Origin: a virus
Length of the DNA: 25,416 nucleotides
Strand: one strand, 5' to 3'
IMG/VR virus record: IMGVR_UViG_3300021961_005331
Location: 1-25,416 of that record
Notes under the pieces: model-generated
Database searches by the model: none
The model's input: only the letters and a program-made list of their open reading frames with translations
What the model was told of the DNA's origin: nothing
Translations under genes and position numbers: made by a program
Shown: positions 1-12,664 of the stretch, piece by piece
Numbering within the stretch: the stretch's first letter is position 1
How the letters are laid out: every line of letters starts with the position of its first letter

Positions 1-104
1 TTTCTTCCATCCAAAGCTAATGCTGCAAGCTGTGTTGGCTGGGTTTTATTTGGGTTACGAGATCCAGTTTCAAAGTCAAATACAATATAGTCTCTATTCG
101 CCAT
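1..104 (-). CDS. DnaQ-like 3'-5' exonuclease, N-terminal fragment (runs off the window)
   Basis: Only the first 34 or so codons are inside the window. The ATG at 104 has an AAAGGAA ribosome binding site 7 bases upstream and overlaps the end of the polymerase gene by 11 bases. The peptide starts MANRDYIVFDFETG. Asp10 and Glu12 in DFET match the Exo I motif of DEDD-type proofreading exonucleases (DnaQ/epsilon and the PolC exonuclease insert). The position directly after a polymerase III alpha fragment supports a proofreading role in the phage replisome. The fold and the other Exo motifs cannot be checked because the gene continues beyond base 1. It may also carry the missing polymerase fingers domain downstream, but that is inference. 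Confidence 0.7.
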   Translation of the reverse strand, partial: MANRDYIVFDFETGSRNPNKTQPTQLAALALDGR

Positions 105-1656
105 TTTTAAATTCCTTTATTTTCATGAGTTTGTCTAGGAGATTAATTCCTAAGACATCAAACTTGACATGACCAAGAGCTTCAAGGTCGGTCATTTCTA
201 ATCCTGCAATCTTTTCTGTTGATCCTCGCTGTTTTACCATTGGACATACTTTGTGTAATGGCTCCTTAGAAATCACTACACCAGCAGCATGTTTACCTTG
301 GGTTTTAAAAGTACCCTCAATATCAATAGCTTGCTGGAAATACTCAGCGTAGTCTCCATCCAATTTTCCATTTTCTAGAATCTGGCAAAAGTCACGCAGT
401 TCATCTGGACGATTGATTAATGCCCAGCGAATAATTGAACGATCCTCTTCATCCATTTCTGCCAACTGGTCAGAGATTTCTGCTTCATTTGGTACGCTCT
501 TTGTTATAGCGTTCATCTCGCTAAAAGAACAAGCTTCATTAACACGCAATACTTCTTTAATTGCACTACGACCCTGAAGTCTACCGAATGTAATCATTTG
601 GCTAACATGTTCATGTCCATACTTATTCTTTAGATATGTAATAACATCGTCACGCTTTTTGCCTGGAACGTCCATGTCAATATCTGGAAGTGATATATGA
701 TCAGCAGAGTTTCGTCCAGCGTTATAGAATCTCTCAAAAAGTAGATCGTATTCTACTGGATCAATTTGCGTTACGCCGATAAGATATGAAATCAAGCATC
801 CTGCCGCAGAACCTCTACCTGGACCGCTCATCCATCCAGAGTCATTGACATAACGAATAATGTCTTGTACAATTAGGAAGTAACCGAATAGATTTGCATC
901 CTTGATAACCTGTAGCTCAGTGTTAAATCTATCAAGATACTTTTGCTTATCCTCTGGCTTCTTAACTTTGCCAGTCTGCACCAAATGTTTTTTCCACCCT
1001 TCTCTAGCCAAGACCTTGAGATATTCTTCTTCAGATAGATTATTTGGGCACTCAAACTTTGGAAGCATTGGCTTGTTGAGGATATCATACTCTTCGCACT
1101 GTTCATAGATTTCTTGCAATGTTTTTGAGTCTTTGCCCTTAATAATGTATTTATTATCATTGACAAAGTAATCTAGAAGCTTGCTATCTAGTTCATTCTT
1201 TCTAATACTTTTTTGTATCTTGGGAAGCGTAGTCTTTGCTTCTGAACACAAAAGAATCCTGTGAAGATTTGCATGTTCTTGCTTCGTGTAATACGATGGC
1301 TTAATGTCAGTATTTTTAAGATATATTAGGTTGTTTTTCTTAATTACACTCATGGCAAAATCACGATCAATGTTTCCATCTTCGTCTAGAGATGAAACCA
1401 TTTCAATCAAATCGTACCAACCGCCTTTGTTCTTTGCGAATATAATACCACTATCAAAGGAGCAACCAATTATTGGCTTGACTCCAACTTTTTTGCAAGC
1501 TTGAAAGAAAGATACTGATCCAGAAATAGTTTTATAATCAGCAATACCGCAAGCAGGATAGCCATTTTCTGAACAAATTTTCGCAAGTTCTGACGGTTTT
1601 GAGAAACCTTTTAGTAGACTGTAATGTGTAAAATTAATCAACGGATACCAAGACAT
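94..1656 (-). CDS. DNA polymerase III alpha subunit, N-terminal half (PHP + palm), C-family
   Basis: This 520-residue protein matches the first half of bacterial DnaE. Residues about 4-75 are a PHP domain whose metal site is degenerate: the HxH positions read Ile/Phe and the DHG motif reads DYK. The palm starts near GPGRGSAAG (278-286). Catalytic Asp325 and Asp327 lie in PDIDMD, ITFGRLQGRSAIKEVLR follows, and the third catalytic Asp is D500 in HVKFDVLG. The protein stops 20 residues later, so the fingers, beta-binding and OB regions of full DnaE (about 1,100 residues) are absent. The start has GGAG 5 bases upstream. The reading frame is clean and ends with TAG in front of an overlapping exonuclease start. 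This looks like a designed split and not decay. The missing half probably lies to the left of the window. Confidence 0.9.
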   Translation of the reverse strand: MSWYPLINFTHYSLLKGFSKPSELAKICSENGYPACGIADYKTISGSVSFFQACKKVGVKPIIGCSFDSGIIFAKNKGGWYDLIEMVSSLDEDGNIDRDFAMSVIKKNNLIYLKNTDIKPSYYTKQEHANLHRILLCSEAKTTLPKIQKSIRKNELDSKLLDYFVNDNKYIIKGKDSKTLQEIYEQCEEYDILNKPMLPKFECPNNLSEEEYLKVLAREGWKKHLVQTGKVKKPEDKQKYLDRFNTELQVIKDANLFGYFLIVQDIIRYVNDSGWMSGPGRGSAAGCLISYLIGVTQIDPVEYDLLFERFYNAGRNSADHISLPDIDMDVPGKKRDDVITYLKNKYGHEHVSQMITFGRLQGRSAIKEVLRVNEACSFSEMNAITKSVPNEAEISDQLAEMDEEDRSIIRWALINRPDELRDFCQILENGKLDGDYAEYFQQAIDIEGTFKTQGKHAAGVVISKEPLHKVCPMVKQRGSTEKIAGLEMTDLEALGHVKFDVLGINLLDKLMKIKEFKNGE

Positions 1657-9610: not shown

Positions 9611-11045
9611 TTTTAATCTTCTTTAATGAGTCTCCATCAACTAATCCCGTATCGCCCACTGGTGCATTCTTTATTTGGTTTCTTGTTCTGAGTTCAATAA
9701 GTTTAGCATGAGAACCTTGCATAACCATATTGATGTAATCACCGTCATCAAGTCCAGCACCGTGCCTAGATACGATTGGTACAAGTTTTCTATTGCCAGC
9801 ATTTGGACCATCCTCCGCTAGTTCTTCTGGAGATTTAATCTTAAAGATGGAGAAGGATGTACATAACCAGATAAGTCTATCTGATCCAGATACGGCATCT
9901 GTGCTTTCCTTGGTTATACCATCTCTATTCAATTGCACAAATGATAGACAAGGAATGTCTAGCTTAACGCATAAATTATGAAGAGAAGTAATCTGGAATC
10001 CCAACGCTTGATACTCTTGGATATTATTCGTTATAGATGTTGATGACATTAGTTTCAAATAATCATAAACAATGAGACAGTCGTTGGTTTTTCCATACTC
10101 ATCGGTCTTGACTTCTTGAACCACCCAGCGTTTAATTAGATTCAGAATCTGATCAAATGGCTTACCAGCAACACTTACATAACTATAAGGTATGGATTCA
10201 ATCTGCTTCATAGCATCAAGAACCTGTTCGTGTTTTTCTGGATCATCTACAAATTGTCCAGTAGCAATCTCATTAATAGGTACACCGCTAAGGTTAGCTA
10301 GCAGTCTATTAAAATGATCTTCCTTCGACATTTCTGTGTCTAGAACTAGAACTGGTGTGAACCTAGAAGATACATTTAGTGCTACGTTGTCAGCGAATAC
10401 AGACTTACCAACCTTTGGTCGTGCTGATACTAGATCGACACATTTCCTGCGTAACCCGCCACCAATAGCTTTGTCATAATTAGTAAAACCCGTTGGTATA
10501 CCAATGATATCGCACTTGTTTTCTGCCAAGAAGTCTACATATTCTTGAATGCCTTCGCCAATCTTCTCTGGTAGATCACCATTATCATCTTCTCTTAGAA
10601 AGTCCGTGACTGGATTCTCTAGGATCTGAATGATATCATTGATTGATTCAGTACCATTAATATCGTCTACATCTTTGCTAATCTTACTGGTTAGCTTTTT
10701 GATCTTCCTAGCAAATTCAAACTTCTTTATCTGAGCAGCGAAGCTTACGACGTTATCTTTATGGATTGGGTAGTTCATCAATGACTTGATGTACTTTAGT
10801 TCCTGAGCCGTATTTATTGACTCAGAAAAGCCCAATTGTGAAGCGGCAGACAGTATTGACGCAACGTCCACAGATTGATCATTCTGGACAATCTTTTCTA
10901 TGCATTTATATAGAATCTGATTGTTTGCATGATCAAACGTTTCGTGACTTATAATGTCAGAAACTAGAACGTATGCATCAATACCATACTGCACAAGAGC
11001 AGCTAGAACTGCTCTCTCTGCTCCAACATCATTTAACTCAGCCAT
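9576..11045 (-). CDS. dnaB: Replicative DNA helicase, DnaB family
   Basis: The 489-residue protein starts at ATG 11045 (AGAGG 6 bases upstream, one base after the previous stop). An in-frame TTG at 11096 has no support. The N-terminal domain (GAERAVLAALVQY onward) resembles the DnaB primase-interacting domain. The RecA-like core has Walker A SARPKVGKS at 207-215. Further on are a Walker B-like LIVYDYLKLM and a conserved QLNRDG block. It should be the hexameric 5'-3' fork helicase, working with the overlapping primase and the polymerase III-type enzyme at the left end. The C terminus is acidic. No intein or truncation is seen. Confidence 0.92.
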   Translation of the reverse strand: MAELNDVGAERAVLAALVQYGIDAYVLVSDIISHETFDHANNQILYKCIEKIVQNDQSVDVASILSAASQLGFSESINTAQELKYIKSLMNYPIHKDNVVSFAAQIKKFEFARKIKKLTSKISKDVDDINGTESINDIIQILENPVTDFLREDDNGDLPEKIGEGIQEYVDFLAENKCDIIGIPTGFTNYDKAIGGGLRRKCVDLVSARPKVGKSVFADNVALNVSSRFTPVLVLDTEMSKEDHFNRLLANLSGVPINEIATGQFVDDPEKHEQVLDAMKQIESIPYSYVSVAGKPFDQILNLIKRWVVQEVKTDEYGKTNDCLIVYDYLKLMSSTSITNNIQEYQALGFQITSLHNLCVKLDIPCLSFVQLNRDGITKESTDAVSGSDRLIWLCTSFSIFKIKSPEELAEDGPNAGNRKLVPIVSRHGAGLDDGDYINMVMQGSHAKLIELRTRNQIKNAPVGDTGLVDGDSLKKIKNGLEEDQEETE

Positions 11046-11046
11046 G

Positions 11047-11451
11047 TTACCTCTTGCTTCCGCATCGGTTGCATCGGTAATATTCGCCGTACACAAAACG
11101 TGAATCTACCTTGAATGACTTACCGCACGAAGCACACTCAACATCCACCTTTCTAGGTGGTGATCGTCGTCGTGGCGTTGGCTCAATGTCTGGAGTGGAA
11201 ATATCACGAAATTCTCCAGTATCTTCCCAACGATTTTCTCTACCTCTCACGGTTTCTCTCCTTTTATTATTTGGAATTGATGTTTCTTTTTTAATGTTAC
11301 TGATACAGTTTTCTGATATATTTTTCTTGACTTGCTTGTTTACTTCTTCTGGTACAAACTGGTTAGCGATACTATTTGTGTCAGACAAAGCGTCTAGTAA
11401 AGCTTTCTTTTGCTCAGTGCTTAATGTCTTTACGAAATCTTCCATACTCAT
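11047..11451 (-). CDS. Small zinc-ribbon protein, function unknown
   Basis: The 134-residue protein begins MSMEDFVKTL and has a helical N-terminal third. A low-complexity, Arg/Pro-rich middle (about residues 65-100) is followed by a C-terminal zinc ribbon with two CxxC pairs (CASC, then CNRC). Its ATG overlaps the preceding stop as ATGA. The position between the coiled-coil protein and DnaB suggests a replication or recombination accessory role, possibly helicase loading or DNA binding, but no family is recognised. The basic middle and ribbon fit nucleic-acid binding. Confidence 0.75.
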   Translation of the reverse strand: MSMEDFVKTLSTEQKKALLDALSDTNSIANQFVPEEVNKQVKKNISENCISNIKKETSIPNNKRRETVRGRENRWEDTGEFRDISTPDIEPTPRRRSPPRKVDVECASCGKSFKVDSRFVYGEYYRCNRCGSKR

Positions 11452-11906
11452 AGTCTTTTACCTTTCTCAAGTAGAATGTCTGCCTTTCGTTTTATTTCAT
11501 AGGTTTTACCATCTAGTGATTGTAGTCTATTTTCAGCAATTAGCCGCATCTGCTCTAGTTTTGCTGCATAACTATTCTCCTTGGATAATATGTGTTTCTT
11601 TGATTCGTGCTTGGTATACTGACCAAACATATCTGAATGCTGTGCTATGAGCCGCTCCATCTGCTCAGTACACCAGTTGAGAGCAATTTTGTTCTTGTTA
11701 ACTTCGTCTTGAATATATGAGGCATAATTGTACAACGTGTAAGCGACATTAAATGTCTCTTCTTGATTTAGTTTGGATAGACTTTCTGTACTCATATCTG
11801 CATACAAAAGGAACTCTTCTTTGAATGATGCAAACTTAGTATTAGTCTCATTGATATAATTATCAATGGACTCAATGTGCTGCTTTAGATCTTCAGTTGC
11901 TGACAA
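11448..11906 (-). CDS. Coiled-coil protein; possible recombination mediator (UvsY-like position)
   Basis: This 152-residue, almost wholly helical protein has long heptad stretches, the clearest being about residues 100-150. The start is TTG with GGAG 8 bases upstream. No internal ATG fits better. The block YTLYNYASYIQDEVNKNK recalls the helical organisation of T4 UvsY, and the gene lies in the RecA/endonuclease VII/DnaB operon where a mediator would be expected. Sequence similarity is too weak to claim homology. It could equally be a scaffold-like or helicase-loader protein. Confidence 0.7.
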   Translation of the reverse strand: MSATEDLKQHIESIDNYINETNTKFASFKEEFLLYADMSTESLSKLNQEETFNVAYTLYNYASYIQDEVNKNKIALNWCTEQMERLIAQHSDMFGQYTKHESKKHILSKENSYAAKLEQMRLIAENRLQSLDGKTYEIKRKADILLEKGKRL

Positions 11907-12315
11907 TTTGCTGTCTCCAAATATCTTTGTTATCGGAATATTTCAATGTGGTAACGTGTATACGGTTCAATCGGCACCACTCTATTTTATCTTCATCTTT
12001 TGCTTTCGCAAGCACAAAGTCTGCCTTGGTCTTGTGAAAAAATGGAGTGTACTCATAGTGCTGTTGACCATGAATCTCAAAAGCTCTAAAGATTTGGGGT
12101 ATGTAAAAATCTAAATACAGCACACCTTTACGATGCGTAGCTGTACTGCCTGGAAGTTTGACTTCCTCTAGGAGATTATAGCTGTGAAAGATTTCACTTA
12201 ACAACTCTCTTGCTCTAAGATGAAATTTTGATCTTGGTCTTACGTTGTCTTTTTTCATGTAGTACGGGTTTAGGTTCCATACGTACTCTCGTCCATTTAT
12301 TCCTAATACCTTCAT
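11893..12315 (-). CDS. Vsr/PD-(D/E)XK-like endonuclease
   Basis: This 140-residue protein begins MKVLGINGREYVWNL. RARELLSEIF, YLDFYIP (Asp69) and FEIHGQQHY (Glu80, His82, Gln84/85, His86) follow. The Asp, then Glu-x-His/Gln arrangement with later KADF and DEDKIEWC blocks is that of very-short-patch-repair-like and related phage or homing endonucleases. Its ATG lies about 100 bases inside the endonuclease VII gene in another frame, with AGGA 7 bases upstream. It is probably a DNA-branch or mismatch nuclease in recombination. A free-standing homing endonuclease is the alternative. Confidence 0.8.
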   Translation of the reverse strand: MKVLGINGREYVWNLNPYYMKKDNVRPRSKFHLRARELLSEIFHSYNLLEEVKLPGSTATHRKGVLYLDFYIPQIFRAFEIHGQQHYEYTPFFHKTKADFVLAKAKDEDKIEWCRLNRIHVTTLKYSDNKDIWRQQIVSN

Positions 12316-12664
12316 ATTTTATCCTGATTTTGTAACGTATTAGGTATACCAATGCAGCTAGTATACCCTTGATATTATCATTTAAGAAACCTATACCTTG
12401 ATTGCAATCAAAACAAATCCACCCCCTAAATACAAGCAGATCGTGATCATGATCGCAGTAAAAACTGCTGTCAGACATGTCTTTTTTACAACATTGACAA
12501 TGGCTTGGTTTTTCTGGGGCGCTCTTTTTGATGCCTCTTAGTGTCTTAGCATCTTTACTACAACACTCTTTACATCTAGAATAAACTGCACCACGATCTT
12601 TTCTATACTCTGTTAACGGCTTGTCAATGTTGCATATTCGACATATTTTTGTTTCTATACTCAC
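12215..12664 (-). CDS. Recombination endonuclease VII (Holliday-junction resolvase, T4 gp49-like)
   Basis: The 149-residue protein carries the His-Me finger core of endonuclease VII: YCDHDHDLLVFRGWICFDCN, with Asp71-His-Asp-His74 and Asn88 followed by GIGFLNDN. Zinc pairs are Cys56/Cys59 and Cys84/Cys87. An extra N-terminal zinc-binding region has Cys8/Cys11 and Cys31/Cys34. The start is GTG, sharing a base with the RecA stop (TAGTG), with AAGGA about 9 bases upstream. It should cut branched DNA before packaging and during recombination. The last 100 bases are also coding for the next nuclease, and the basic C-terminal tail lies in that overlap. Confidence 0.88.
   Translation of the reverse strand: MSIETKICRICNIDKPLTEYRKDRGAVYSRCKECCSKDAKTLRGIKKSAPEKPSHCQCCKKDMSDSSFYCDHDHDLLVFRGWICFDCNQGIGFLNDNIKGILAALVYLIRYKIRIKYEGIRNKWTRVRMEPKPVLHEKRQRKTKIKISS

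Follow-up and report, generated by a model that had tools for sequence, protein, structure and literature searches.

Replicative DNA polymerases are usually regarded as single-chain catalytic subunits. PolC carries its exonuclease inserted within the same chain, and the epsilon exonuclease of E. coli is encoded elsewhere. Cyanobacterial DnaE of the Ssp/Npu type is produced as two halves that bear IntN and IntC and are spliced to one chain, and the two genes lie far apart. Dassa and colleagues reportedly described, in 2009, 'fractured genes', in which split inteins occur together with free-standing endonucleases; that work is cited in PMC10448857. The intein split of cyanobacterial DnaE is cited in PMC3919608. 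Group 2.2 jumbo phages encode a minimal DNA polymerase III (Pol III) alpha subunit as separate N- and C-terminal proteins that were proposed to reconstitute the enzyme; the other Pol III domains are missing, the genes are distant and a family B polymerase is present alongside (PMC7824862). Gene 43 is split (43A/43B) in the T4-like Aeromonas phages 25 and 44RR, as is nrdA in phage Aeh1; in a T4-like phage, the split 43A and 43B products purify together and have activity (PMC2988022). Here we describe a Pol III alpha subunit (DnaE) encoded by two genes, dnaE-N and dnaE-C, in a clade of phages represented by a 25,416-base IMG/VR contig (IMGVR_UViG_3300021961_005331; 'the window'), a fragment of an uncultured phage. 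The chain is broken at a linker, an exonuclease gene lies between the halves and there is no intein at the break. The best explanation, to which we assign a probability of about 0.86, is that a deep clade of uncultured phages has a C-family replicative polymerase made constitutively as two chains, the product of an old and fixed fission, and that the halves associate non-covalently and the exonuclease proofreads.

Two genes for one DnaE polymerase

A sequence-only reading of the window had described its first gene, dnaE-N (520 residues), as encoding PHP and palm domains with three catalytic aspartates and a stop 20 residues after the last of these, without fingers, and the next gene as overlapping it by 11 bases and opening as a DnaQ-type exonuclease. 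Pfam and alignment agree with the former description, and Pfam finds no fingers domain in the 520 residues; full-length relatives of the latter gene product are RNase_T/DnaQ proteins of 224–229 residues. In the alignment to E. coli DnaE the chain stops near residue 575, and Asp325, Asp327 and Asp500 correspond to Asp401, Asp403 and Asp555. The D-x-D pair and third aspartate of the palm place the protein in the C family (DnaE type). The N-terminal PHP domain of that family is also present, although its metal motifs are degraded in the window (THYS, ADYK and GCSF) and in its sub-clade (THYS and ADYK); motif comparison shows that other lineages retain HxH ... TDHG ... GCEF.

The C half is not inside the window, whose contig ends within the exonuclease gene, and is expected just beyond base 1. 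In relatives, the fingers of the C-family polymerase are supplied by a separate gene: all 23 related contigs (23 of 23) have a single copy of the family PF17657, shortly downstream, and the lack of any fingers gene, which the sequence-only reading had named as one finding that would undo its proposal, does not apply. The dnaE-C product has about 520 residues, with domains from the fingers to the OB fold. Since the N half ends near E. coli residue 575 and the C half begins near residue 589, the break falls in the palm/fingers linker. Across 243 distinct protein triplets (N half, exonuclease and C half), the N half ends 15–43 residues after the third aspartate (median 20, as in the window), and the C half begins at most 76 residues before the motif FQLES. 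The short N tail and short C lead leave no room for an intein at the break, where Pfam gives no Hint match and the IntN/IntC pair of a split-intein DnaE is absent; the contrast that had been drawn with the cyanobacterial split holds in both the lack of an intein and the position of the break. Divergent lineages have the linker (DINNIPLDC, for instance) at the start of the C half (as in L171, ...FDINNIPLDCDKTWNLI), which indicates that nothing essential is lost at the break. Fingers motifs are kept in nearly all of the 243 triplets, and the three catalytic aspartates in every one. The best matches of single-chain AlphaFold2 models of the window's N half [predicted local distance difference test (pLDDT) 91.2, predicted template-modelling score (pTM) 0.87] and of the C half of locus L020 (pLDDT 91.1, pTM 0.80) are Pol III alpha structures, and both halves are predicted to be complete folds.

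In 61 of the 243 triplets (L154, L158, L163, L166, L168, L171 and L174 among others) the linker of the dnaE-C product is preceded by a conserved N-terminal extension that contains a CGC motif (FDCGCKFPV, for example). The extension possibly binds metal and might be what keeps the two halves together. No obvious QxxLF beta-clamp-binding motif was seen in the alignment of C halves, in which no systematic search for it was made.

A first scan of viral contigs gave 65 relatives, and later scans with profiles and divergent queries brought the set to 336 loci after clean-up. All three parts are present in 308 of these, the source of the 243 distinct triplets, and in all 308 the order is N half, exonuclease, C half on a single strand. 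Such recurrence of break and gene order is far beyond chance. The contigs that are long enough show dnaE-N, an optional cassette, the exonuclease gene, a second optional cassette and dnaE-C. Not one of the 308 complete loci carries a fused dnaE encoding a single continuous chain, and the sole fused relative, L181, is distant (32% identity). A further 11 loci have only dnaE-N and the exonuclease gene, and most of these contigs stop there. The palm/fingers junction is intact in all ten phage DnaEs taken from outside the clade; two outsiders, L184 and Dulem virus 36 (L189), are broken within the fingers. The closest match among 50,697 phage records has about 33% identity over most of the query. 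One full locus (L182; VFHP01000007.1) is on a contig binned in a SAR202 metagenome-assembled genome (MAG), a weak hint of host. L106 (5075-6709) has an in-frame stop at the codon of a conserved palm cysteine (SAAG*LISY instead of the usual SAAGCLISY), probably a base error.

The three parts also appear to share a history. Distances among N halves, exonucleases and C halves correlate (Mantel r of 0.895, 0.932 and 0.881, with a best permutation of 0.171), consistent with joint inheritance. A maximum-likelihood tree of N and C halves together sets 30 split representatives apart from nine unsplit ones on a long branch with a Shimodaira–Hasegawa-like approximate likelihood-ratio test (SH-aLRT) value of 100. 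FastTree analyses of the N and C halves separately also give a monophyletic split group (0.987 and 0.831, respectively); the support printed by FastTree for the concatenation was low after re-rooting, and we rely on the SH-aLRT value. Fission of a full-length DnaE is the simplest reading of these trees, the root of which is not fixed.

The exonuclease, the gap and the window

The exonuclease gene in the window begins MANRDYIVFDFETG, and its start is nearly identical in L002. The overlap between the N-half stop and the exonuclease start is mostly 4, 8 or 11 bases in near relatives. The full-length proteins match RNase_T (Pfam, 3.4e-13) and the PHROG family 'DNA polymerase exonuclease subunit', and the DEDDh residues of a DnaQ-type enzyme (Asp10, Glu12, Asp119, His185 and Asp190) are invariant in 15 aligned members. 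Distant homologues occur in Bacteroides phages and in Rctr197k, with no DnaE half near them. As the gene is common to lineages with degraded and with intact PHP metal motifs, the exonuclease is not simply a substitute for PHP activity.

The exonuclease gene is the sole constant gene of the gap between the halves. The interval from dnaE-N to dnaE-C ranges from about 0.65 to 6.8 kb, and its contents vary and include multi-gene stretches. Among 155 loci examined, 50 have no extra gene, 80 have a gene between dnaE-N and the exonuclease gene and 48 have one between the exonuclease gene and dnaE-C. The added genes encode Endonuclease VII-type HNH proteins (25 loci, between the exonuclease gene and dnaE-C), helix-turn-helix (HTH)-HNH endonucleases (seven loci, between dnaE-N and the exonuclease gene), a 163-residue protein without assignment (11 loci), FkbM-like methyltransferases and others. 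The number and variety of these genes indicate that insertion at the break is frequent. At eight loci (L147, L154–L158, L167 and L177) a gene between dnaE-N and the exonuclease gene resembles, by eye, a uracil-DNA glycosylase (CKRCPLHK ... GEALGENE).

The features of the polymerase region of the window are listed in Table 1. Other genes on the minus strand encode a Toprim primase, a DnaB-type helicase, RecA, a PD-(D/E)XK nuclease, a deoxynucleoside monophosphate kinase, PhoH, a dUTPase and a class II ribonucleotide reductase; with these neighbours, dnaE-N belongs to a phage replication module. The stretch 11893-12664 (minus strand), which lies downstream of the recA-like gene, contains an Endonuclease VII-type gene (12215-12664) and an adjoining gene for a 140-residue protein (11893-12315) that has no assigned family and resembles Vsr-like endonucleases by eye. 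This pair is possibly a homing endonuclease cassette.

Table 1. Features of the polymerase region, in window coordinates
Feature	Position	Strand	Evidence
dnaE-N, PHP, palm and thumb half of Pol III alpha (DnaE), 520 residues	94-1656	minus	Open reading frame, Pfam, E. coli alpha alignment, AlphaFold2 model
PHP domain, residues 10-171	1144-1629	minus	Pfam E 3.8e-15; motif comparison with relatives
Palm domain, residues 211-503	148-1026	minus	Pfam DNA_pol3_alpha, profile 1-260/260, E 1.2e-69; E. coli alignment
Catalytic aspartates of palm	D325 (682-684), D327 (676-678), D500 (157-159)	minus	Residues checked, E. coli alignment
Break site: 11-base overlap of dnaE-N stop TAG (94-96) and exonuclease start ATG (102-104)	94-104	minus	Sequence
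Shine-Dalgarno-like AAAGGA, 8 bases ahead of exonuclease ATG	113-118	minus	Sequence
Start of DEDDh (DnaQ-like) exonuclease gene, 34 codons, cut by contig end	3-104	minus	Open reading frame

Proposed assembly and origin, and alternative explanations

No family A, B or C polymerase other than the split DnaE was seen in the contigs tested: neither a family A (PolA) nor a family B (PolB) enzyme was found in 22 contigs of 33–238 kb, with control genomes positive. Because this sole recognisable polymerase is encoded as two separate proteins, the enzyme would have to assemble from pieces. The earlier proposal of a two- or three-part polymerase thus stands as far as separate genes are concerned (308 of 308 loci), and the physical reassembly of the parts into an active polymerase is what we infer from their sequences. 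The N half, exonuclease and C half would be made from one transcript, with translational coupling through overlapping stops and starts. The N and C halves would then pair non-covalently across the palm/fingers interface, creating a single active site, and the exonuclease would act as the proofreading subunit, probably docked on the PHP domain like E. coli epsilon. The arrangement may have originated when a full-length phage DnaE was split once, at a linker that tolerated the break, and been inherited vertically since; the fission probably occurred through insertion of a gene, either that of the exonuclease itself or that of a homing endonuclease.

Several points weigh against a constitutively two-chain polymerase. 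The structure predictions are of single chains. At two loci (L221 and L270) no C half was detected although the flank beyond the exonuclease gene exceeds 2 kb. The 50,697 phage records searched include no cultured member of the clade. In addition, most contigs are fragments, so a second polymerase could escape detection.

A further reading, which we consider rather unlikely, makes the exonuclease more than a passenger: the products of the three genes would constitute an obligate heterotrimeric Pol III core, with the exonuclease bridging the two polymerase halves or gating them. To our knowledge, such a layout has not been described for any replicative polymerase, and here it would be fixed throughout a phage clade.

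It is distinctly improbable that the halves are exons and that the exonuclease gene, with any others in the gap, is skipped by ribosomal bypassing or excised by a self-splicing intron that went unrecognised, to yield one DnaE chain. Introns with nuclease genes often interrupt phage genes, and RNA splicing can rejoin essential genes that are split (ICP1; PMC10448857). Against this, Rfam identifies no intron in 137 kb from eight loci spanning the lineages, and intron splicing was rejected on this result. Moreover, the N half has its own stop codon, inside the start of the exonuclease gene, the C open reading frame opens with a start codon of its own and an N-terminal extension that is specific to the lineage, and the genes that would have to be removed differ from locus to locus.

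Still less probable is decay, by which the polymerase would be a broken remnant, the host replicase would be used and the exonuclease would be unrelated. Split genes do sometimes degenerate, and neither the beta clamp nor the clamp-loader delta-prime family was found in the 22 contigs, with control genomes positive for both. (A probe for the T4 capsid, PF07068, matched neither the contigs nor the controls and is uninformative.) We rejected decay since both halves and every catalytic aspartate are retained over up to about 60% amino-acid divergence and the halves are co-inherited with the exonuclease; nor was another polymerase found.

Protein trans-splicing of the two halves after the manner of cyanobacterial DnaE, by way of a cryptic split intein located at the break, ranks lower again. 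The clade does host split inteins, as shown by L060 and L199, at other positions of the polymerase. In L060 (8001-9966) a naturally split intein interrupts the palm of dnaE-N (GPGRG | C...DILEV // MKLTKKK...VHN | SAAG), with the two intein-bearing open reading frames about 50 bases apart; this polymerase is then encoded in three genes, with trans-splicing probable for the products of two of them. In L199 (9792-12787; also in L200) dnaE-C is broken in the fingers by a split intein (FNK | SHS), and a separate open frame of 314 codons (10752-11696) lies between the parts. Continuous inteins occur within dnaE-C in L120 (10331-12679), where the intein has an HNH-like stretch, and in L178 (7965-9950). 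At the N/C break itself, however, an intein was rejected for want of a Hint match and of space, the N tail being too short for IntN.

A continuous gene disrupted by an error of sequencing or assembly, which the window's end inside the region might suggest, as a misassembled contig end would, can be dismissed because the arrangement recurs at 308 loci drawn from many metagenomes, one of them on the contig in the SAR202 MAG, with a conserved exonuclease gene and often more genes between the halves in hundreds of independent contigs; the single sequencing error that the sequence-only reading had allowed for fails on the same count.

Comparison with known systems

In this large phage clade the one recognised polymerase has remained in two chains despite great divergence, which shows that a permanent break is tolerated at the palm/fingers junction. 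The separate halves are a natural resource for split-polymerase studies, and the clade can serve to test how a gene fission becomes fixed. With an intein-free break and split-intein breaks (L060 and L199) in one enzyme, the routes by which genes break could be compared. We found no description of the dnaE-N/exonuclease/dnaE-C arrangement in the open literature (subscription papers were outside the search).

As in the split Pol III alpha of jumbo phages, a phage C-family polymerase is encoded as separate N- and C-terminal proteins. Unlike in that system, the clade described here has the full domain set (PHP to OB fold) and neighbouring genes around the exonuclease gene, and neither PolB nor PolA was found alongside. 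The split resembles 43A/43B and Aeh1 nrdA in being an intein-free fission of a phage gene for DNA synthesis with nuclease genes around it. Those cases concern a family B polymerase or a reductase in single phages or small groups, whereas here the enzyme belongs to family C, the split is clade-wide and the invariant intervening gene is that of a proofreading exonuclease. Cyanobacterial DnaE is likewise encoded by two genes, but there the break is elsewhere and is bridged by an intein. The clade shares with 'fractured genes' a phage replication gene in two parts and, at some loci, endonuclease genes in the gap, and L199 and L060 are true cases; the main N/C break, in contrast, is intein-free, and the constant gene of the gap encodes an exonuclease, not an endonuclease. 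As in PolC and in DnaE with DnaQ (epsilon), a C-family polymerase is combined with a DEDDh exonuclease, here as a separate gene between the polymerase halves. Split phage polymerases as such are already known; what is new here is the clade-wide variant.
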